Positions 19,428 through 47,337 of a DNA stretch of 64,000 nucleotides are shown here, in pieces (position 1 is the stretch's first letter; each line of letters opens with the position of its first letter). The DNA comes from Cellulomonas dongxiuzhuiae (lineage in GTDB: Bacteria; Actinomycetota; Actinomycetes; Actinomycetales; Cellulomonadaceae), in NCBI RefSeq assembly GCF_018623035.1, contig NZ_CP076023.1, forward strand, positions 2,976,001 through 3,040,000, written 5' to 3'. The position numbers were made by a program, and so were the translations under genes. Below the pieces are notes generated by a model that saw nothing but the letters and a program-made list of their open reading frames with translations, was not told where the DNA came from and ran no database searches.

Positions 19428-20308
19428 CACGACTCCTTCGCGTCGTCGGACTTCTGCTTGCGCTGCTCGCCGGCGGGCGAGACGTCGGCCGGCGTCGTCG
19501 GGGCCCGGTCGGCGCTGGACTGCGCCTCGCCGGCCTCCGGCTCGCCGTGGCTCGCGCCGCTCGTGGCCACGCGCTCGTCGGCGTCGAACGACGGTGCCGT
19601 CCAGCCGCGCTCGCGCGCCAGCTCGGTGCCGCGCACGGTCGCCGGACCGGCACCCACGCCCTCGTCGGCGCGGCCGTCGGGGAAGCCCGCCAGGACGCGG
19701 CTCATCTCCTTGAACGTGCAGACCGACGACGCCCCGCGCGTCGGCGCGACGGGCGCACCCTCGACGAGCCGGTCGACGACGTCCACGGCCGAGGCCGGCG
19801 TCTGGTTGTCGAAGAACTCCCAGTTGACCATCACGACGGGCGCGTAGTCGCAGGCCGCGTTGCACTCGATGCGCTCGAGCGTGATCGCGCCGTCGCCGGT
19901 CGTCTCGTCGTGCCCGATCCCGAGGTGCGCGCTGAGCTCCTCCCAGATCGCGTCACCGCCCATGACCGCGCACAGCGTGTTGGTGCACACGCCCACCGTG
20001 TAGGTGCCGTTGGGGTGCCGCTTGTACTGCGTGTAGAAGGTCGCGACCGCGGAGACCTCGGCGGTCGAGATGCCCAGCGTCGCGGCGCAGAACGCGATGC
20101 CGCGCGGGCTGACGTAGCCGTCCTCCGCCTGCACCAGGTGCAGCATCGGCAGCAGCGCCGAACGCGCCTGCGGGTACCGCGCGATGATCTCCTGCGCGTC
20201 GGCCGTCAGGCGGGCGCGCGTCGCGTCGTCGAAGCCCGTGGCGTGCCGCTCCCCCGGGGTCCGGCCGTGGTCGTGGGGCGCCGGGGCGCCCGCGTGCTCG
20301 ACGGACAT
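19427..20308 (-). CDS. nuoE: NADH-quinone oxidoreductase subunit E, with C-terminal extension
   Basis: A 293-residue thioredoxin-fold subunit carrying the off-path 2Fe-2S cluster N1a. The four ligands are seen in VCTNTLCAVMGG and IECNAACDYAPV. The core (about residues 30-200) matches E. coli NuoE (166 residues). The last 90 residues are hydrophilic, rich in Ala, Glu, Pro and Lys, and have no counterpart in short NuoE proteins. The ATG shares one base with the nuoD stop. Confidence 0.96.
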   Translation of the reverse strand: MSVEHAGAPAPHDHGRTPGERHATGFDDATRARLTADAQEIIARYPQARSALLPMLHLVQAEDGYVSPRGIAFCAATLGISTAEVSAVATFYTQYKRHPNGTYTVGVCTNTLCAVMGGDAIWEELSAHLGIGHDETTGDGAITLERIECNAACDYAPVVMVNWEFFDNQTPASAVDVVDRLVEGAPVAPTRGASSVCTFKEMSRVLAGFPDGRADEGVGAGPATVRGTELARERGWTAPSFDADERVATSGASHGEPEAGEAQSSADRAPTTPADVSPAGEQRKQKSDDAKES

Positions 20309-21660
20309 CAGCGGTCCACCCCTCCCAGCACCGGGTCGATCGACGCGACGGCGACGACGACGTCGGCGATCTGCCCGCCCTCGCACATCATCGAGACGGC
20401 CTGCAGGTTGTTGAACGACGGGTCGCGGAAGTGCGCCCGGTACGGCTTGGTGCCGCCGTCGGAGACCAGGTGGACGCCCAGCTCGCCGCGCGGGTGCTCG
20501 ACGGTCTGGAAGACCTGGCCCGCCGGCACGCGGAAGCCCTCGGTGACCAGCTTGAAGTGGTGGATCAGGGCCTCCATGGAGGTACCCATGATCTCCTTGA
20601 TGTGGTCCAGCGAGTTGCCCATGCCGTCGGTCCCGATGGCGAGCTGCGCGGGCCACGCGATCTTCTTGTCGGCGACCATCACGGGCCCCGGCTTCGCGAG
20701 CCGCTCGAGGCACTGCTCGACGATCCGCATCGACTGGTAGCACTCCTCGATGCGCACCAGCAGGCGCGCCCACGAGTCGGCCGCGTCCTGCGTCGGGACG
20801 TCGAAGTCGTACGTCTCGTACCCGCAGTACGGGTCGGTCTTGCGCACGTCGTACGGCAGGCCGGTCGCGCGCAGCAGCGGACCCGTGACGCCCAGCGACA
20901 TGCAGGCCGCGAGGCTGAGCGCCCCGACGTCCTTCATGCGCGCCTGCAGGATGGGGTTGGCCAGCATGAGGTCCTCGAGCTGGCGGAAGTAGCCGCGGAC
21001 CGTGGTCATGGCCTCGCGCACCGAGTCGATGGCGCCCGGGGGCACGTCCTGCGCGACCCCGCCCGGGCGGATGTACGCGTGGTTCATGCGCAGGCCGGAG
21101 ATCAGCTCGAAGACCTTGAGGATCTCCTCGCGGGCCGTGAAGCCCAGGATCATGATCGTCGTCGCGCCGAGCTCGTTGCCGCCCGTCGCCAGGAAGACCA
21201 GGTGCGAGGAGATGCGGTTGAGCTCCATCATCAGCACGCGGATGACCGAGGCGCGCTCGGGCACGTCGTCGGTGATGCCGAGGAGCTTCTCCACCGCGAG
21301 GCAGTAGGCCGCCTCCTGGAACAGCGGGGCGACGTAGTCCATGCGGGTGCAGAACGTCACGCCCTGGGTCCAGGTGCGGTACTCCATGTTCTTCTCGATG
21401 CCCGTGTGGAGGTAGCCGATGCCAGCCCGGGCCTCGGTGACGGTCTCGCCGTCGATCTCGAGCATGAGGCGCAGCACGCCGTGCGTCGACGGGTGCTGCG
21501 GGCCCATGTTGACGACGATGCGCTCCTCGCCGAGGCGAGCGGCCTCCTCGGCGATGTCGGACCAGTCGCCGCCCGAGGCCTCGAACGAGGGCACGCCCTG
21601 CGTCTCGTCCAGCGGGACGTGGCGGGTCGCGTGGGGGGTCTGTGAGGTGGGAGCGGTCAT
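20308..21660 (-). CDS. nuoD: NADH-quinone oxidoreductase subunit D
   Basis: A 450-residue 49-kDa-type subunit that lines the quinone pocket with NuoB. The hallmark [23 protein letters not shown] lies near residues 50-70; its histidine and a later tyrosine contact the quinone headgroup in known structures. [15 protein letters not shown] and [10 protein letters not shown] are further family segments. The C-terminus ends [11 protein letters not shown], typical of the family. It overlaps nuoC and nuoE by one base each (TGATG). Confidence 0.97.
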
Positions 21661-22613
21661 CAGCTGTACGACCTCCGCTGGTCCGGGGGCGGGATGGTCG
21701 CGCCCTTGTACTCGACCGGGATCCCGCCGAGGGGGTAGTCCTTGCGCTGCGGGTGGCCCGGCCAGTCGTCGGGCATCTCGATGCGCGCCAGGCCGGGGTG
21801 GCCGTCGAACACGATCCCGAAGAAGTCCCAGGTCTCGCGCTCGTGCCAGTCGTTGGCGGGGTAGACCGCCACGGTCGAGGGGATGTGGGGGTCGCCCTCG
21901 GGTGCCGCGACCTCGAGCCGCAGGCGGCGGCCGTGGGTCACCGACACCACGTGGTACACCGCGTGCAGCTCGCGTCCGGCGTCGTGCGGGAAGTGGACCC
22001 CGGAGACCCCGAGCGAGAGCTCGAAGCGCAGGTCGGGGTCGTCGCGCAGCGCCTGGACGACCTCGACGAGGTGCTCGCGCGCGACCTCCAGCGTGAGCTC
22101 GCCGCGGTCGACCACGACGGCCTCGACCGCGTGCGCGAAGCCGGTGCCGGACTCGTCGAGGACCTCGGTGAGGACGTCGACGACCTCGTCGAACCAGCCG
22201 CCGTACGGACGCTCGCTGGGGCCGGGCATCGCGACGGTCCGCACGAGACCGCCGAAGCCCGAGGTGTCGCCCGTGCCGGCCACACCGAACATGCCGGTGC
22301 GGACGTCGACGATGTCGAGGGGCGTGCGCGGGCCCGTCGGGTCGGGACCCGCCGGGAGGTTCTGGGACCCCGCCTCGAGGGCTGCCGCGCTCGTGCGCTG
22401 CGTCCCGGCCGGTGCGGGCTCGCCCGGCTTGACCGCGGCCGACGCGTCCGCCTTCTCGGCGGTGGGCTTGGTGCCCTCGGTCGGCCGGTCGGCCGCGGGG
22501 GACGTCGCGTCCTCGGGCGGCGTCGACACCGCGGCGGGCTTGGTGCCCGTCGTGGGGTCCGTGCCCTCGCCCGGCGTCGCGTCCTGCTCGGGCTGCGTGC
22601 CCTCGTCGCTCAT
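21660..22613 (-). CDS. nuoC: NADH-quinone oxidoreductase subunit C, with disordered N-terminus
   Basis: A 317-residue 30-kDa-type subunit. The conserved core is in the C-terminal half: [47 protein letters not shown]. The first 90 residues are rich in Thr, Pro, Glu and Ala with repeated GTKP/GTDP-like motifs and are probably disordered; M. tuberculosis and E. coli forms are arranged differently. The ATG overlaps the nuoB stop (ATGA), which fixes the start and shows the extension is real coding sequence. Confidence 0.95.
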
Positions 22614-23161
22614 CGCAGCAGTCCCGTCATGTGCGACGTGGGGGTCGCGGCCATCGCGGCCTCCTGCGCCTTGCGCGCGGCCTCCTGGCGGTTGACGCCC
22701 AGCGGCTGGTCCTGGATCTGCTGGTGGAGCGCGAGGATCGCGTGCAGCAGCATCTCGGGGCGCGGCGGGCAGCCGGGCAGGTAGATGTCCACGGGGACGA
22801 TGTGGTCGACCCCCTGCACGATCGCGTAGTTGTTGAACATGCCGCCGGACGACGCGCACACGCCCATCGACAGCACCCACTTGGGGCCGGCCATCTGGTC
22901 GTAGACCTGGCGGACGACGGGCGCCATCTTCTGGCTCACGCGGCCGGCCACGATCATGAGGTCGGACTGGCGCGGCGACGCGCGGAAGACCTCCATGCCG
23001 AAGCGGGAGATGTCGAACCGGCTCGTGCCGGCCGCCATCATCTCGATCGCGCAGCACGCGAGCCCGAACGTGACGGGCCACAGCGAGGCCTTGCGGAAGT
23101 AGCCGACGAGGTCCTCGACCGTCGTCAGCAGGAAGCCCGAGGGCGCTTCCTCGATGCCCAT
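22610..23161 (-). CDS. nuoB: NADH-quinone oxidoreductase subunit B (cluster N2)
   Basis: A 183-residue subunit that holds N2, the last 4Fe-4S cluster before quinone. The adjacent cysteines are in [12 protein letters not shown]; the other ligands are a cysteine in [10 protein letters not shown] and one in [11 protein letters not shown]. The N-terminal amphipathic stretch touches the membrane in known structures. Length is normal for the family. It is followed after a 4-base overlap by nuoC and separated from nuoA by 75 bases. Confidence 0.97.
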
Positions 23162-23236
23162 GTCAGCTCCTCCTCGAAGTCGGTCGGCTGCGCGTCGTGG
23201 CAGCGGTGGGGCCCGGTCGTGCGGGTCCGTGCACGG

Positions 23237-23599
23237 TCAGTCCCACTCCAGGCCGCCGCGCTTCCACTCGTAGACGAACGGCACCGTGATGATCAGCAGG
23301 AACGCCATCATCGCCACGAGGCCGAACGTCGCGAGCTCCGCGAATCCGACGGCCCAGGGGTAGAGGAAGACGACCTCGATGTCGAAGATGATGAAGGTCA
23401 TCGCGACCAGGTAGTACTTGATCGGGAAGCGCCCGCCGCCGATGGCGTGGGGCGTGGGCTCGATGCCGCACTCGTAGGCCTCGAGCTTCGCGCGGTTGTA
23501 CCGCTTGGGTCCGAGGATCGCGCTCGCGCCGACCCCACCGAGGGCGAGGACGGCCGCGATCCCGATCATCACCAGGAGCGGGACGTACGGGTTGCTCAT
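23237..23599 (-). CDS. nuoA: NADH-quinone oxidoreductase subunit A
   Basis: A 120-residue three-helix membrane subunit and the first gene of the nuo run. The conserved loop KLEAYECGIEPT contains the cysteine that changes exposure between active and resting enzyme; IKYYLVAMTFIIFDIEVVFLYPWAV is helix 2 with its conserved acidic residues. GAGGAGGA lies upstream of the ATG. Only 69 bases separate it from the menJ stop on the same strand, and no obvious promoter was seen in that gap, so menJ and nuo may be cotranscribed. Confidence 0.97.
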   Translation of the reverse strand: MSNPYVPLLVMIGIAAVLALGGVGASAILGPKRYNRAKLEAYECGIEPTPHAIGGGRFPIKYYLVAMTFIIFDIEVVFLYPWAVGFAELATFGLVAMMAFLLIITVPFVYEWKRGGLEWD

Positions 23600-23668
23600 C
23601 GAGCGGTCCTCCTCGTCGAAGACGTCCGGCCGGGCCGGCCCTGCGTCGCGTTGGTCATGCTCGCTGCC

Positions 23669-24970
23669 TCAGGCATCCGGCGCCAGCCGGGCGAGCGCGG
23701 AGATGACGCGGTCGACCACGTCGCCGCCGCGAGGTTCGTAGGAGTCGGACAGCAGCTTGAGCACGAACTTCATGAGCAGCGGGCGCGGCAGCCCGTAGCG
23801 CGTGCACAGGTGCATGACCTGGGGGTGCTCGATGAGGCGCACGAACACCCGGCCGAGCGTGTAGTACCCGCCGAGGTCGTCCTTCATGCGCTGCTGGTAC
23901 GTCGCGAGCGCCCGTTCCCGGCCGGCGGCCGAACCGCGCGCCAGACCCTGCGCGATCGCGTCCGCCGCGACCCTACCGGCCTGCAGCCCGTAGGCGATGC
24001 CCTCGCCGTTGAAGGGGCTGATCATGCCCGCGGAGTCGCCCGCGAGCAGGAGGCCGTCGGCGTACAGCGGGCCGCGGTTGAAGCCCATCGGGAGCGCCGC
24101 ACCGCGCACGGGCGCGACCTGGTTGTCGGGCGTGAACTCCCACTCGCGCGGCGCGTTGGCCATCCAGCGGGAGAAGAGGTCCTTGTAGTCGACCTTGGTC
24201 GCCGCGGCGGTGGAGCTCACCGAGCCCAGGCCGACGTTCGCGGTGCCGTCGCCGAGCGAGAAGATCCAGCCGTACCCGGGCATGAGGTTCGAGGCCCCGG
24301 GCGCACCGTCCCACAGCTCGAGGTGCGACTCCATCCACGGGTCGTCGTGGCGCGGGGTGCGGAAGTACGTGCGGACCGCGACGCCCATCGGGCGGTCGTC
24401 GCGCTTCACGCGTCCGACGGCGGTCGCGAGCCGCGCGGAGACGCCGTCGGCGGCGATGACGACGGGTGCGCGGTACTCGACCTCGGCACCCGCGTCCACG
24501 GTGCGCCGACCGTCGGCCGCGACGGGCCGCGCCCGCACACCGACGACGCGGCCGGTGCGCTCGTCACGCACGGGCGCCGTGACCGACGTGCCCTCGAGGA
24601 GCTTGGCGCCCGCGGCGCGGGCGTGCTCGGCGAGCGTCTGGTCGAAGGACGTGCGTGCGCGGGCCAGGCCGTAGGACGGGTAGCTCGACAGCTCGGGCCA
24701 CGGCAGCTCGATCCGGTGGCCGCCGCCGATGACGCGCAGGCCCGCGTTGCGGATCCAGCCGTCCTGCTCGCGGATCGGCACACCCATGCGCACCAGCTCG
24801 GCGACCGCACGCGGGGTCAGGCCGTCGCCGCAGATCTTGTCGCGCGGGAACGTCGCCTTCTCCAGCAGGAGGACGTCGAGCCCCGCGGCCGCGCAGTGGT
24901 AGGCGGCGGAGGACCCTGCCGGACCGGCGCCGACGACGATGACGTCCGCGTCATCGACCGCTCCGACCAC
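23669..24970 (-). CDS. menJ: MenJ-like menaquinone side-chain reductase (geranylgeranyl reductase family)
   Basis: A 433-residue flavoprotein that saturates one or more isoprene units, in this setting most likely of the menaquinone tail, as shown for mycobacterial MenJ. VIVVGAGPAGSSAAYHC at residues 10-26 binds FAD, KICGDGLTPRAV is the family's conserved loop, and LLAGDSAGMISPFNGEGIAYGL near residue 290 is the second FAD contact. The GTG start has a GGGGTGG ribosome site. It heads the nuo strand block, 69 bases before nuoA, and a near-consensus Rex operator lies 15-30 bases upstream of the start. Plant-type chlorophyll or archaeal lipid roles are unlikely here because all neighbours are quinone genes. 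Confidence 0.92.
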   Translation of the reverse strand: MVGAVDDADVIVVGAGPAGSSAAYHCAAAGLDVLLLEKATFPRDKICGDGLTPRAVAELVRMGVPIREQDGWIRNAGLRVIGGGHRIELPWPELSSYPSYGLARARTSFDQTLAEHARAAGAKLLEGTSVTAPVRDERTGRVVGVRARPVAADGRRTVDAGAEVEYRAPVVIAADGVSARLATAVGRVKRDDRPMGVAVRTYFRTPRHDDPWMESHLELWDGAPGASNLMPGYGWIFSLGDGTANVGLGSVSSTAAATKVDYKDLFSRWMANAPREWEFTPDNQVAPVRGAALPMGFNRGPLYADGLLLAGDSAGMISPFNGEGIAYGLQAGRVAADAIAQGLARGSAAGRERALATYQQRMKDDLGGYYTLGRVFVRLIEHPQVMHLCTRYGLPRPLLMKFVLKLLSDSYEPRGGDVVDRVISALARLAPDA

Positions 24971-24984
24971 CGTGCCACCCCACT

Positions 24985-25000
24985 TGTGACGTTGTTCACG
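24985..25000 (-). promoter_or_regulatory. Candidate Rex operator ahead of menJ-nuo
   Basis: The plus-strand sequence TGTGACGTTGTTCACG matches 10 of the 13 fixed positions of the actinobacterial Rex site TGTGAACNNNTTCACA, including both GTGA and TCAC half-sites. It lies just downstream of the -10 of the menJ promoter and 15 bases before the start codon, where a bound repressor would block transcription. Rex itself is encoded at 45357-46106. Confidence 0.65.
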
Positions 25001-25013
25001 TGCAACCCCGGCG

Positions 25014-25042
25014 AGTGTAACCAGCGCCTCGGAGCCTGTCTG
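25014..25042 (-). promoter_or_regulatory. Promoter of menJ (and probably nuo)
   Basis: On the minus strand CAGACA (25042-25037) and TACACT (25019-25014) are separated by 17 bases. The predicted start of transcription is about 37 bases upstream of the menJ start codon and about ten bases before the Rex-like operator. Confidence 0.55.
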
Positions 25043-25230
25043 CGAAGGCTTGGCTTACCTCAGCCGCGGCCCGGGCCGAACGTCCCGGGGACGCACGGCC
25101 ACCAGCGCCGCCGACCACCTCGCGACGCCGTACGTCCGCGCACCGCGGGACGCGCCGTGCTCATCCTGCCCCCGCCCCGCGAGGCCCCCCGACGGGGGTG
25201 GTGCACCGCACGGTCGCCCGCCCGGCGGGG

Positions 25231-25923
25231 TCAGGGACGGGTCGCGCGGTGCAGGGCGACGATCCCGCCGGAGAGGTTGCGGAAGGCCACCTTGTCCCAC
25301 CCGGCGTCCCGCACCAGGAGGCCGAGCTCGCGCTGGTCGGGCCAGCTGCGGATGGACTCGGCGAGGTACACGTAGGCGTCCGGCTCCTTGGACACCGCGC
25401 GCGCCACGGGCGGCAGGGCGCGCATGAGGTAGTTCGTGTAGACCGTGCGGAACGGCGCGAACGTCGGCCGGGAGAACTCGCACACGACCATGCGCCCCCC
25501 CGGGCGCGTGACGCGCAGCAGCTCGCGCAGCGCCGCGTCGACGTCGGAGACGTTGCGCAGGCCGAACGACATCGTCACGGCGTCGAAGGACTCGTCGGCG
25601 AACGGCAGGTGCAGCGCGTCACCCGCCACGAACGGCAGGTCGGGGCGGCGGCGCCGGCCGACGCGCAGCATGCCCGTCGACAGGTCGCACGGCACGACGT
25701 GCACACCCGCGTCGGCGAGCGGCTCGCTCGACGTCCCCGTGCCGGCGGCGAGGTCGAGCACCGTCTCGCCGCGCTCGGCGCCGAGCGCGGCGAGCGTGGC
25801 CCTGCGCCACGCCCGGTCCTGCCCGAGGGAGATGACGTCGTTCGTGAGGTCGTACCGGTGCGCGACCGCGTCGAACATGGCGGCGACGTCGCGGGGGTCC
25901 TTGTCGAGGGCGGCGCGAGGCAT
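25231..25923 (-). CDS. menG: Demethylmenaquinone methyltransferase
   Basis: A 230-residue SAM-dependent methyltransferase of the UbiE/MenG family, catalysing the last ring methylation to menaquinone. Class-I motifs: [15 protein letters not shown] near residue 55 (SAM binding), [20 protein letters not shown] near 115, and [19 protein letters not shown] near 140, with NVSD and EFSRP typical of the family. The start at [10 protein letters not shown] was chosen because the family begins a few residues before [16 protein letters not shown]; a longer frame adds only non-conserved sequence. Divergent from the TRM11-like gene. A 260-base gap containing the menJ promoter follows its stop. Confidence 0.95.
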
Positions 25924-26036
25924 GCGCCCATGGTCGCAGGTCCGCGCCGCGGGCCGCGCACCGTGCTCGGGTAGCGTGCGCCGTGGGCCCGGCGTCGGCC
26001 GGGCCGCAGAGCCGACCCCCGGGGGCGTCACCACCC

Positions 26037-27159: not shown

Positions 27160-28485
27160 ATGAGCACGTCGCCGAGCACCCCCGTCACCGGTGGCGTCCC
27201 CCGCCCCCTGGTGGTCCGCACCGTCCCGTGCGACCTGCCCGCGGGCGCCGTGCCGGACGCCGACGACCTGCTGGACCTCCTGGGTCCCGACGCCCCGCTC
27301 GCATGGGTGCGCCGCGGCGACGGGCTCGTGGCGTGGGGCGAGGCCGCCCGCATCGAGGTGCACGGCGCCGACCGGTTTGCCGACGCCGAGCGGGCCTGGC
27401 GGCAGCTCCTGGAGCACGCGATCGTCCGCGACGAGGTGCGGCTGCCCGGCACGGGGCCGATCGCGTTCGGGTCCTTCGCGTTCGACGACGACTCCCCCGC
27501 GGGCGGCGTGGTCGTCGTGCCGCGCGTCGTCGTGGGACGACGCGACGGACGCGCGTGGCTGACGACCCTGAGCGCGCCGGGCGAGCTCGGTCCCCTGCCT
27601 CGCCTGCGCGACGTCGCGCCGCGGCACGTCCCGCCGGCCGCACCCGGCGAGGTCACCTACACCGACGGCGCGGTCGACGCCGAGAGCTGGCTCGACGTGG
27701 TCGCGCGCGGCGTCGCCGCGATCCGCTCGGGCGAGGTCGAGAAGGTCGTGCTCGCGCGCGACGTGCACGCGCGCACGCAGCACCCGCTGGACGTGCGCTG
27801 GGCGCTGCACCGGCTCGCCGACCGGTACCGGTCGTGCTGGACCTTCAGCGTGGACGGCATGATCGGGGCGACGCCCGAGCTGCTGGTCCGCTCGGAGCGG
27901 GGGCTCGTCACGTCCCGCGTGCTCGCCGGCACGATCCGGCGCACGGGCGACGACGACGCCGACATGGGTCGCGCCGCGATCCTCGCGCACTCGTCGAAGG
28001 ACCTCGAGGAGCACGAGTACGCCGTGACGTCGGTCGCGCGGGCGCTCGCGCCGTTCTGCTCGTCGTCCAACGTGCCCGACCTGCCGTTCGTCCTGCCGCT
28101 GCCCAACGTCCTGCACCTCGCGTCCGACGTCACGGGCGTCCTGACGGCACCGCAGGGCGACGACGCGCACCCCTCGTCCCTGGCACTGGCCGCCGCGCTG
28201 CACCCGACGGCGGCGGTGTGCGGCACCCCCACGCAGGCCGCACGCGCTCTCATCACCCGCATCGAGGGCATGGACCGCGGTCGGTACGCCGGCCCGGTCG
28301 GCTGGTTCGGCGCGGACGGCGACGGCGAGTGGGGCATCGCGCTGCGCTGCGCGGAGGTCGACCGCGACGACCCCCGCCGGCTGCGCCTGTTCGCCGGCTG
28401 CGGCGTCGTCGCCGCGTCCGACCCCGCCGCCGAGCTGGCGGAGTCGCGCGCGAAGCTCGACCCCATGCGGCACGCGCTGTCCTGA
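27160..28485 (+). CDS. menF: Isochorismate synthase (menaquinone branch)
   Basis: A 441-residue chorismate-utilising enzyme that converts chorismate to isochorismate, the entry step of menaquinone synthesis. Family segments: SGEVEKVVLARDVHA near residue 195 (catalytic lysine region), EEHEYAVTSVARAL near 285, HPTAAVCGTP near 350, and GRYAGPVGWFGADGDGEWGIALRCAE near 370 to 395 with the Mg-binding glutamates. The setting among men genes favours the MenF role over a siderophore EntC role. Transcription converges with htrA, and two hairpins lie between the two genes. Confidence 0.93.
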   Translation: MSTSPSTPVTGGVPRPLVVRTVPCDLPAGAVPDADDLLDLLGPDAPLAWVRRGDGLVAWGEAARIEVHGADRFADAERAWRQLLEHAIVRDEVRLPGTGPIAFGSFAFDDDSPAGGVVVVPRVVVGRRDGRAWLTTLSAPGELGPLPRLRDVAPRHVPPAAPGEVTYTDGAVDAESWLDVVARGVAAIRSGEVEKVVLARDVHARTQHPLDVRWALHRLADRYRSCWTFSVDGMIGATPELLVRSERGLVTSRVLAGTIRRTGDDDADMGRAAILAHSSKDLEEHEYAVTSVARALAPFCSSSNVPDLPFVLPLPNVLHLASDVTGVLTAPQGDDAHPSSLALAAALHPTAAVCGTPTQAARALITRIEGMDRGRYAGPVGWFGADGDGEWGIALRCAEVDRDDPRRLRLFAGCGVVAASDPAAELAESRAKLDPMRHALS

Positions 28486-45356: not shown

Positions 45357-46106
45357 TCACGACGCACCGCCCCCGACGCTGCGCGCACGGTCGTGGAACG
45401 CCAGGATCTGCAGCTCGGACGCGACGTCCACCGCCCGCACGTCCACGTGCGCGGGGACGCGCAGCGCACGCGGAGCGAACGTGAGGATCCCGACCACGCC
45501 GGCCGCGACGAGCTCGTCGCACACGCGCTGCGCGACCGCGGCCGGGGTCGTCAGCACCGCGATCGTCGCCCCCGTCCGGTGCACGACCGTCCGCAGGTCG
45601 TCGGCGTGCTCGACCTCCAGGCCCGCCACCGTCGTGCCGACCACCGACGGGTCCGTGTCGACCAGCCCCACCAGGACGAAGCCGCGCTCCGCGATGCCCG
45701 CGTAGTTCGCGAGCGCGTGCCCCAGGTTGCCCACCCCGACGAGCAGCACGCGCCGCACGTCCGCCAGGCCCAGCACCACCGTGATCTGCTCGCGCAGGTG
45801 CCCCACGTCGTAGCCGACGCCGCGGCGGCCGTACGACCCCAGGAACGACAGGTCCTTGCGCAGCTGCGCCGGCGTCACGCCGGCCCGCGCCGCGAGCTCC
45901 TCGGACGACGTCAGGACGGCACCGTCGGACGCCGTCGCCTCCAGCGCACGCAGGTAGCCCGGCAGCCGACCGACCGTCGCGGGCGGCACCGGCTGCCCGT
46001 CACGACCGGCACGCCCGTCGCCGGCACGTCGCCCAGCGGTGCGCCGATCGTCCACACGACCCTCCGTACGCCGCGCGCCGGGCACGGCCCCGGCGCCAGG
46101 TGTCAC
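45357..46106 (-). CDS. rex: Redox-sensing transcriptional repressor Rex
   Basis: A 249-residue repressor that binds DNA when NADH is low and lets go when NADH is high. The N-terminal winged helix contains LTSSEELAARAGVTPAQLRKDLSFLGSYGRRGVGYDV near residues 65 to 100; the NADH-binding Rossmann fold has LLVGVGNLGHALANY near 120 and a GLVDTDP acidic turn. About 40 Arg/Gly-rich residues precede the domain. It starts 3 bases after the glutaredoxin stop. In Streptomyces Rex controls nuo, cyd and its own hem operon; here the hem genes are missing, but a Rex-like operator precedes menJ-nuo. Confidence 0.95.
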   Translation of the reverse strand: MTPGAGAVPGARRTEGRVDDRRTAGRRAGDGRAGRDGQPVPPATVGRLPGYLRALEATASDGAVLTSSEELAARAGVTPAQLRKDLSFLGSYGRRGVGYDVGHLREQITVVLGLADVRRVLLVGVGNLGHALANYAGIAERGFVLVGLVDTDPSVVGTTVAGLEVEHADDLRTVVHRTGATIAVLTTPAAVAQRVCDELVAAGVVGILTFAPRALRVPAHVDVRAVDVASELQILAFHDRARSVGGGAS

Positions 46107-46109
46107 ACG

Positions 46110-46388
46110 CTAGGGCCTGCCGCCCCCCGGAGCGAGGGCGCGCCGCAGGCGCGCCTCGTCGATCCGCCAGTACCCACGGCGCACGCCGTCCACGTCGACG
46201 ACCGGCACCATCTCGCCCAGCTCGTCCGCCAGGACGCGCCCGTCGGGCCCCGGCACGTCCACGTCGACCTCGGCCCACGTCGCGCCCACGTCCGCGCACA
46301 CCCGCTCGACGAGCGCACGCGCCACGTCGCACAGGTGGCAGCCGGCACGCCCGTAGAGCACCACGCGGGCCGTCGTCGTCTCGCTCAC
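46110..46388 (-). CDS. Glutaredoxin-like protein
   Basis: A 92-residue thioredoxin-fold protein with CHLCDVAR (CxxC) near residue 17 and a cis-proline region MVPVVDVDG near 60, matching the actinobacterial glutaredoxin/DUF836 group (Rv0508-like). The GTG at 46388 is preferred; it lies eight bases after TAGCGT (46402-46397). A TTG at 46397 would overlap that element. It is cotranscribed with rex, suggesting a shared redox role. Confidence 0.85.
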   Translation of the reverse strand: MSETTTARVVLYGRAGCHLCDVARALVERVCADVGATWAEVDVDVPGPDGRVLADELGEMVPVVDVDGVRRGYWRIDEARLRRALAPGGGRP

Positions 46389-46458
46389 GAGGCCCAACGC
46401 TAGACCGCCACGCCGACCACGCCCCGGTCGGGTTCGCCACGCGCGCCGCCCCGCTCGT

Positions 46459-46464
46459 TAGAGT
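46459..46464 (+). promoter_or_regulatory. -10 element of the HAD phosphatase gene
   Basis: TAGAGT, exactly six bases before the ATG at 46471; the divergent glutaredoxin promoter lies 57 bases away. Confidence 0.55.
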
Positions 46465-46470
46465 GGCCGG

Positions 46471-47337
46471 ATGCACGCTGGGGACGGATCGGACGAGCGC
46501 GCCGTCGTCGCCGCGACCGTCGAGACGCCGCGCGCCGCGCTGGTCCCCGACGACACGCGCGTCGCCGCGTTCTTCGACGTCGACAACACGATCATCCGCG
46601 GGGCCAGCTCGTTCCACCTGGCCGTGGGGCTGTACCGCCGGGGCTTCTTCCGCAACTTCGACCTCGTCCGGTTCGCCGTGCAGCAGGCCCGCTACCGGGT
46701 GTTCGGGGAGGACCGCGACCAGATCGACGAGCTGCGCACGCGCGCCCTGGACATCATGCGTGGGCGCTCCGTCGCCGAGGTCACCGCGGTCGCCGAGGAC
46801 GTCTACGACGAGGTCCTGAGCCTGCGCATCTACCCCGGCACGCGCGCGCTGCTCGACGCGCACCTGGCCGAGGGGCACGCCGTGTGGCTCGTCACCGCGA
46901 CCCCCGTGGAGATCGGCGAGCTCATCGCGCGCCGCCTCGGCGCGTCCGGCGCGCTGGGCACCGTCGCCGAGCACGAGGACGGGTTCTACACCGGCCGGCT
47001 GGTGGGCGACCTGCTGCACGGCGAGGCCAAGGCGAGCGCCGTCCGTGCGCTGGCGCTGCGCGAGGGGTACGACCTGCGCGCGTGCCACGCGTACGGCGAC
47101 TCGACGAACGACGTGCCGATCCTGTCGACCGTCGGGCACCCGTGCGCCATCAACCCCGACGGGCGGCTGCGCCGGCACGCCGCCGAGGTGGGCTGGCCCG
47201 TGCGCGAGTTCCGGTCGCGACGCCGCCAGGCCCGGCGCGGCGTCAACGCCGCGAGCCTCGCCGGGGTCGCCTGGGCGGTGGCCGTGGTGGTGCGCGCCGT
47301 GAGCCGCTCGATCCGACGACGGGTCGGGGCAGGATGA
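46471..47337 (+). CDS. HAD-superfamily (subfamily IB) phosphatase, SerB1-like
   Basis: A 288-residue hydrolase. Motif I is FFDVDNTIIRGASS near residue 33 (nucleophile Asp), motif II is the Thr in WLVTATPVEIG near 140, and motif III/IV is ACHAYGDSTNDVPIL near 207. It resembles phosphoserine phosphatase-like SerB1 of mycobacteria, but the substrate is not certain. A C-terminal basic and hydrophobic stretch (AGVAWAVAVVVRAVSRSIRRR) may bind the membrane. The ATG is six bases after TAGAGT. The downstream GNAT gene overlaps its stop (ATGA). Confidence 0.88.
   Translation: MHAGDGSDERAVVAATVETPRAALVPDDTRVAAFFDVDNTIIRGASSFHLAVGLYRRGFFRNFDLVRFAVQQARYRVFGEDRDQIDELRTRALDIMRGRSVAEVTAVAEDVYDEVLSLRIYPGTRALLDAHLAEGHAVWLVTATPVEIGELIARRLGASGALGTVAEHEDGFYTGRLVGDLLHGEAKASAVRALALREGYDLRACHAYGDSTNDVPILSTVGHPCAINPDGRLRRHAAEVGWPVREFRSRRRQARRGVNAASLAGVAWAVAVVVRAVSRSIRRRVGAG

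Follow-up and report, generated by a model that had tools for sequence, protein, structure and literature searches.

Conserved Rex-type palindrome, probably an operator, in the promoter region of the menJ-nuo genes of Cellulomonas dongxiuzhuiae

Rex is known to control nuo in Streptomyces, as the preliminary description of the locus studied here had stated; in S. avermitilis, the nuoA1-N1 operon is under Rex control (PMC5355995). In Saccharopolyspora erythraea, IdeR was found by EMSA to bind the nuo promoter at a half site (PMC8464063; also PMC10317159), and the former paper makes no mention of Rex. Tn5 insertions in ggr, nuoA, nuoJ, and nuoG of Actinomyces oris share one class of mutants with weak coaggregation (PMC5478893). 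The actinobacterial Rex literature that we found is Streptomyces work, and our literature search, made mostly without subscription papers, found neither menJ (geranylgeranyl reductase) under Rex nor a Rex box and an iron box at one promoter. Here, we describe a palindrome at 24984-25001 of a 64,000-nucleotide stretch of C. dongxiuzhuiae DNA (the whole stretch is called the window below) that, judging from sequence comparisons, is very probably an operator for Rex within the promoter of a joint menJ-nuo operon.

The genes of the locus lie on the minus strand. The demethylmenaquinone methyltransferase gene menG/ubiE (25231..26034; NF001241, 385.7 bits against a cut-off of 327) is located upstream of a menJ-like gene for a geranylgeranyl reductase family flavoprotein, a putative menaquinone-tail reductase (23669..24970; TIGR02032, 248.3 bits against a cut-off of 158.8). 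The 260-nt gap between them holds, in the order of transcription, an iron-box-like palindrome, a -35 element, a -10 element, and the Rex-type palindrome, which stops 13 nt 5' of the GTG start codon of menJ (25001-24984). A 69-nt gap (23600..23668), in which we found no Rex palindrome and in which the promoter/terminator scan gave no match, separates menJ from nuoA, the first complex I gene (23237..23599; NF005922 above its cut-off). The predicted operon continues with nuoB, nuoC, and nuoD (20308..23161; annotation and profile matches), so that the reductase frame and nuoA to nuoD follow one another on one strand as previously proposed; the present nuo annotation covers nuoA to nuoD. On the opposite strand near menG, a chorismate-binding enzyme (PF00425) is encoded at 27160-28485, possibly for a menaquinone or siderophore entry step.

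The name menJ is based on the gene context and the TIGR02032 superfamily match, no other protein of the genome exceeding the TIGR02032 cut-off; with the MenJ equivalog model NF045655, for which the cut-off is 700, the reductase reaches only 248.7 bits. A menaquinone role is supported by the menG and nuo neighbours. Cellulomonas contains partly saturated MK-9.

A rex gene was expected in the same window and is located there (45357..46106, minus strand), 20 kb from menJ and on its strand. Its product contains the winged-helix N-terminal domain PF06971 (61.5 bits) and the Rossmann domain PF02629 (71.6 bits), both above their cut-offs, and matched eight PDB sequences, all of them Rex proteins, one being filed as an AT-rich DNA-binding protein. 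We take PDB entry 2dt5 to be a Rex. PMC8836258 gives twelve residues of Thermotoga maritima Rex that contact DNA; in an alignment read by eye, 11 of them are the same here, including the Arg48/Lys49 pair, and Lys43 is replaced by Thr. Nine rex regions were searched for a Rex site of at least 9/12: six (L203-L208) have one each, including the published Streptomyces type, and none was found in the regions of two relatives (L201 and L202) or in that of C. dongxiuzhuiae itself (45357-46700 of the window).

The candidate operator (24984..25001, minus strand) reads ACGTGAACAACGTCACAA on the minus strand and TTGTGACGTTGTTCACGT on the plus strand. It contains the 16-base site that had been pointed out at 24985-25000 (TGTGACGTTGTTCACG on the plus strand), for which we obtained the same agreement with TGTGAACNNNTTCACA on the plus strand (10 of 13 fixed bases) and a match at 11 of 13 on the minus strand. 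Compared with the TTGTGAA-N4-TTCACAA-type ROP pattern, from which published sites depart by at most 3 bases, it has mismatches at 3 of 14 positions. Directly before it, the well-spaced promoter of the preliminary description can be read from the sequence (25014..25042, minus strand): -35 CAGACA at 25042-25037, a spacer of 17 nt, and -10 TACACT at 25019-25014. A simple sigma-70/terminator scan of 22400-25400 gave no match and did not list this CAGACA/TACACT pair. Transcription would start near 25007, ~7 nt after the -10 element, so that the palindrome would occupy approximately +6 to +23. The palindrome begins 12 to 13 nt after the conserved -10 element, i.e., in or near the promoter core, as is the case for ROP sites.

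The palindrome was then sought in relatives, using at least 10/12 matches to TTGTGA-N6-TCACAA as the threshold and 1600 shuffled 400-nt upstream regions as the background. In the named set, comprising the best 80 of 121 relatives found, the DNA upstream of menJ was read in all 80 loci; the closest named relative of the reductase found is from Cellulomonas avistercoris (99% identical). The class-wide set comprises 114 genomes, own genome aside, in which MenJ was matched at an E value of 1.3e-134 or below; the menJ upstream DNA was read in 89 of these, and Rex was searched in 80. The palindrome precedes menJ in 62 of the 80 named loci (best 80 of 121) and in 67 of the 80 class genomes, compared with 0.4% of the shuffles, and it is also present in all nine class genomes outside the Rex search, which belong to one genus (f22/g40). 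Many of the sites from outside Cellulomonas, e.g., TTGTGAAGTTGTTCACAA and TCGTGAAGGAATTCACAA, are textbook Rex sites. Of 139 sites (62 from the best 80 of 121 named relatives, 76 class-wide, and that of the window), 135 have a TANRNT-type -10 element 6 to 20 nt 5' of the palindrome, compared with 3% in shuffles.

The presence of the palindrome follows that of rex. A search for the N-terminal domain of Rex in 40 of the named genomes gave matches above the cut-off in 22, and the palindrome was found in 22/22 genomes with Rex and in 0/18 without; the other 40 named loci (of the best 80 of 121 relatives), which were outside this search, all have the palindrome. The 18 Rex-less genomes are five Actinomycetaceae, Ruania, ten that are Propionibacteriaceae-like, and two MAGs near Cellulomonas (L036 and L056), and three genomes counted among them (G019, G027, and G039) have a Rex match below the family cut-off. 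L036, in which no rex was detected, retains a -35/-10 region that can be aligned but has lost the palindrome. The two MAGs, having neither a Rex match nor the operator, may represent a natural loss experiment, although the absence of rex could also reflect their incompleteness. In the class-wide set, Rex was detected in 78 of the 80 genomes. In one of the two exceptions, G046, menJ adjoins nuoA and the palindrome is absent; the other, G196, has the palindrome in an assembly of 1310 contigs, its three genus mates in the set having Rex. A tree of 59 reductases supports four independent changes of rex; with random pairings, the palindrome changed in the same way in 3.5 of these and in the opposite way in none (p 0.125). 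The association of rex with the palindrome is strong, and the independent events behind it are few.

The palindrome also follows the nuo genes. In the 78 Rex-positive class genomes, nuoA begins at most 700 nt downstream of menJ in 67, and 66 of these 67, from 21 families, have the palindrome; in the 11 with no nuoA at this position, it was never found ahead of menJ (0/11). Genome G102 has Rex and menJ beside nuoA, yet no Rex palindrome of at least 9/12 was found there in 8 kb. Three of the 11 unlinked genomes have no NuoA match or only a weak, distant one. The other eight form one genus (f21/g26), with menJ 1.8 to 6.7 kb from nuoA, that we call Streptomyces-like because their operators are identical to the published Streptomyces one: in 3/3 of these genomes read that far, TTGTGACCTGCTTCACAT, identical to the S. 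avermitilis nuoA1 operator, lies shortly before nuoA. The operator thus tracks the head of the nuo unit, and menJ is covered where it forms that head. This raises the question of whether Rex acts in effect on complex I, with menJ carried along as a passenger first gene and menaquinone saturation unchanged. The 0/11 at menJ in the unlinked Rex genomes and the placement of the operator before nuoA in the three Streptomyces-like genomes both favour such a view. Against this, the menG-menJ-nuo order is old and common, and, leaving chemistry aside, in 66 of the 67 Rex genomes with linkage, menJ stands between operator and nuo and is followed by no conserved promoter. We give the passenger explanation somewhat less than even weight.

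The gaps between menJ and nuoA bear on the same point. Among 81 loci (the best 80 of 121 named relatives and the window), nuoA was seen downstream of menJ in 79, and the contig ends in the other two. The 79 gaps measure 0 to 148 nt (median, 57); none of them contains a Rex palindrome (0/79), and a -10-like hexamer occurs in one. A conserved second promoter ahead of nuoA, the feature named beforehand as counting against a joint unit, was not found among these 79 gaps. As the palindrome follows a conserved -10 element and these gaps lack any such palindrome, one Rex-repressed menJ-nuo operon is likely, and so is the predicted cotranscription of menJ and nuo. Overall, the comparison favours the Rex operator, promoter, and menJ-nuo unit first proposed, through the co-occurrence with rex, the erosion of the site where rex went undetected, the tracking of nuo linkage, and gaps that are free of further Rex palindromes and nearly free of -10 elements.

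A site of this shape could also be read by CRP/GlxR, the cAMP receptor, which would couple nuo to carbon status and not to NADH. The palindrome matches 10 of 11 positions of the CRP consensus, a CRP-type gene is present, and further perfect TGTGA-N6-TCACA sites occur in the genome. At G000:C1:3556066-3556184, a TGTGA-N6-TCACA site and a Rex-like site stand 100 nt from each other, between divergent and transporter-like frames. However, A7 and T12, by which the Rex consensus is distinguished from that of CRP, persist in 91 of the 94 sites obtained by symmetrising the 47 unique class-wide ones. In the named set (best 80 of 121), both are kept in 15 of the 62 sites and one of them in 47; the S. 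avermitilis nuoA1 operator likewise keeps one (PMC5355995). We also searched 41 genomes (the 40 named ones and G046) for a CRP orthologue, with the CRP-type gene of C. dongxiuzhuiae as the query. Nine of the 19 Rex-less genomes have one (E 3e-79 or better) and none of these has the palindrome, whereas Sanguibacter suaedae (G015), a Rex genome in which CRP found no match at 1e-20, carries a perfect palindrome, so that among these 41 genomes no conservation with CRP irrespective of Rex was seen. CRP is no explanation for the conservation, and we regard it as quite improbable as the reader of the site, although it could bind there additionally.

By its match to the consensus alone, the palindrome is at chance level: the window contains 3 matches to TGTGAACNNNTTCACA with no more than 3 mismatches, where 2.85 are expected. 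The 3.98-Mb genome has 7 places within 3 mismatches of TTGTGAANNNNTTCACAA, compared with 2 for a reversed control. Consensus scans of the window, tried as an arbiter, did not distinguish a Rex site from a CRP site or from a chance match. A matrix was built from the 47 unique class-wide sites, genome G124 being represented by a weaker tied site although TCGTGAAGAAATTCACGA is also present there. With this matrix, the palindrome ranks first in the window with a score of 19.9 (the next scores 7.7), compared with 20.8 for the footprinted S. avermitilis nuoA1 site; the matrix alone separates poorly from CRP, an ideal CRP-like site scoring 17.8. The significance of the palindrome thus comes from its conservation across relatives and not from the match, and a functionless chance palindrome, for all that 2.85 matches of such quality are expected in the window, is practically incompatible with its presence in 62/80 named loci (best 80 of 121 relatives) and 67/80 class genomes against 0.4% of shuffles.

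None of the other six near-consensus places in the genome could be shown to be a classical Rex target, two of them having been viewed only briefly; this and the lack of a site of at least 9/12 at rex itself weigh against the Rex reading. One, at 3556167, lies at the start of the transporter-like frame mentioned above, with the divergent frame on its opposite side. The best Rex consensus match of the genome (TTGTGAACTCCTTCACCC, 2 mismatches; G000:C1:1936-1953) is found ~400 nt past an ORF whose translation, named by eye, looks like DnaA, possibly near the origin.

An IdeR/DtxR-like iron box that does not appear in the preliminary description directly abuts the -35 element on its upstream side (25044..25062, minus strand; TGAGGTAAGCCAAGCCTTC). 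It belongs to the 19-bp TTAGGTTAGSCTAACCTAA-type palindromes, matches TWAGGTWAGSCTWACCTWA at 15 of 19 positions with W allowed, and is the best match in the window; in ten window shuffles, one strand each, the best match was 12 or 13 of 19. Having 4 mismatches, it falls outside our genome scan for iron boxes, which allowed 3. The two best iron boxes of the genome precede the genes for a periplasmic binding protein (PF01497) and a siderophore-interacting protein, and two DtxR-type genes score above the cut-off. In the named set (best 80 of 121 relatives), 42 of the 62 sites have an iron box of at least 13/19, ~46 to 55 nt before the operator, compared with 0.7% in shuffles; this set is mostly one Cellulomonas-rich clade, so that these occurrences are not independent. 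In the class set, an iron box of at least 13/19 accompanies 3/3 sites in families f4 and f33 and 0/73 others, i.e., it is clade-bound. The box suggests a joint input of NADH and iron at the menJ-nuo promoter.

We infer from these comparisons Rex binding, repression, a single transcript, and a possible effect on menaquinone saturation. When NAD+ dominates, a Rex dimer would sit just downstream of the transcription start and block RNA polymerase. A build-up of NADH, when the acceptor is short or NADH oxidation is too slow, would free Rex and allow complex I to be made along with the quinone-tail reductase, extending NADH sensing to quinone chemistry. In the Cellulomonas-rich clade, iron supply would probably be a second input to complex I, which is rich in iron-sulfur clusters, because of the IdeR/DtxR-like box directly upstream of the -35 element. 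A broader proposal, which we put forward tentatively and think rather unlikely as a whole, is a two-input promoter (Rex for NADH/NAD+ and IdeR/DtxR for iron) that governs how much complex I is made and, by way of the reductase linked to it, how far the menaquinone pool reduced by complex I is saturated, with tail chemistry being redox-adjusted across actinobacteria and Streptomyces being an uncoupled lineage. Under this arrangement, high NADH should raise menJ together with complex I, and perhaps menaquinone saturation as well, and iron would probably act at this promoter too.

Several described systems share parts of this arrangement. The A. oris ubiE-ggr-nuo genes (PMC5478893) form the same neighbourhood; unlike here, the five Actinomycetaceae genomes examined, A. 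oris itself not among them, have neither Rex nor the operator. MenJ of Mycobacterium tuberculosis, a menaquinone reductase (cited in PMC9686282), is of the same flavoprotein superfamily and menaquinone context, whereas the present reductase stays below the NCBIfam MenJ equivalog cut-off. S. erythraea nuo also has an iron regulator at a complex I promoter; binding to a half site was observed there, whereas the fuller box seen here, a sequence match of 15/19, is accompanied by a candidate Rex operator (PMC8464063). The closest counterpart is S. avermitilis nuoA1-N1, which shares Rex, a complex I operon, and an operator (TTGTGACCTGCTTCACAT) that closely resembles the present one, down to the imperfect half site; the footprint there covers -42 to -16, before nuoA, whereas the operator predicted here lies downstream of the transcription start and ahead of menJ (PMC5355995). 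In the Streptomyces-like genomes (8/8 read), menJ is remote from nuoA and has no operator, unlike here. Rex at nuo in Streptomyces and IdeR at nuo in S. erythraea are thus each already published, and the extension to menJ is a variant of unexpectedly wide distribution: in our sample, an operator heading a quinone reductase and complex I unit is the common arrangement, found in 21 families, and the Streptomyces-like genomes are the exception.
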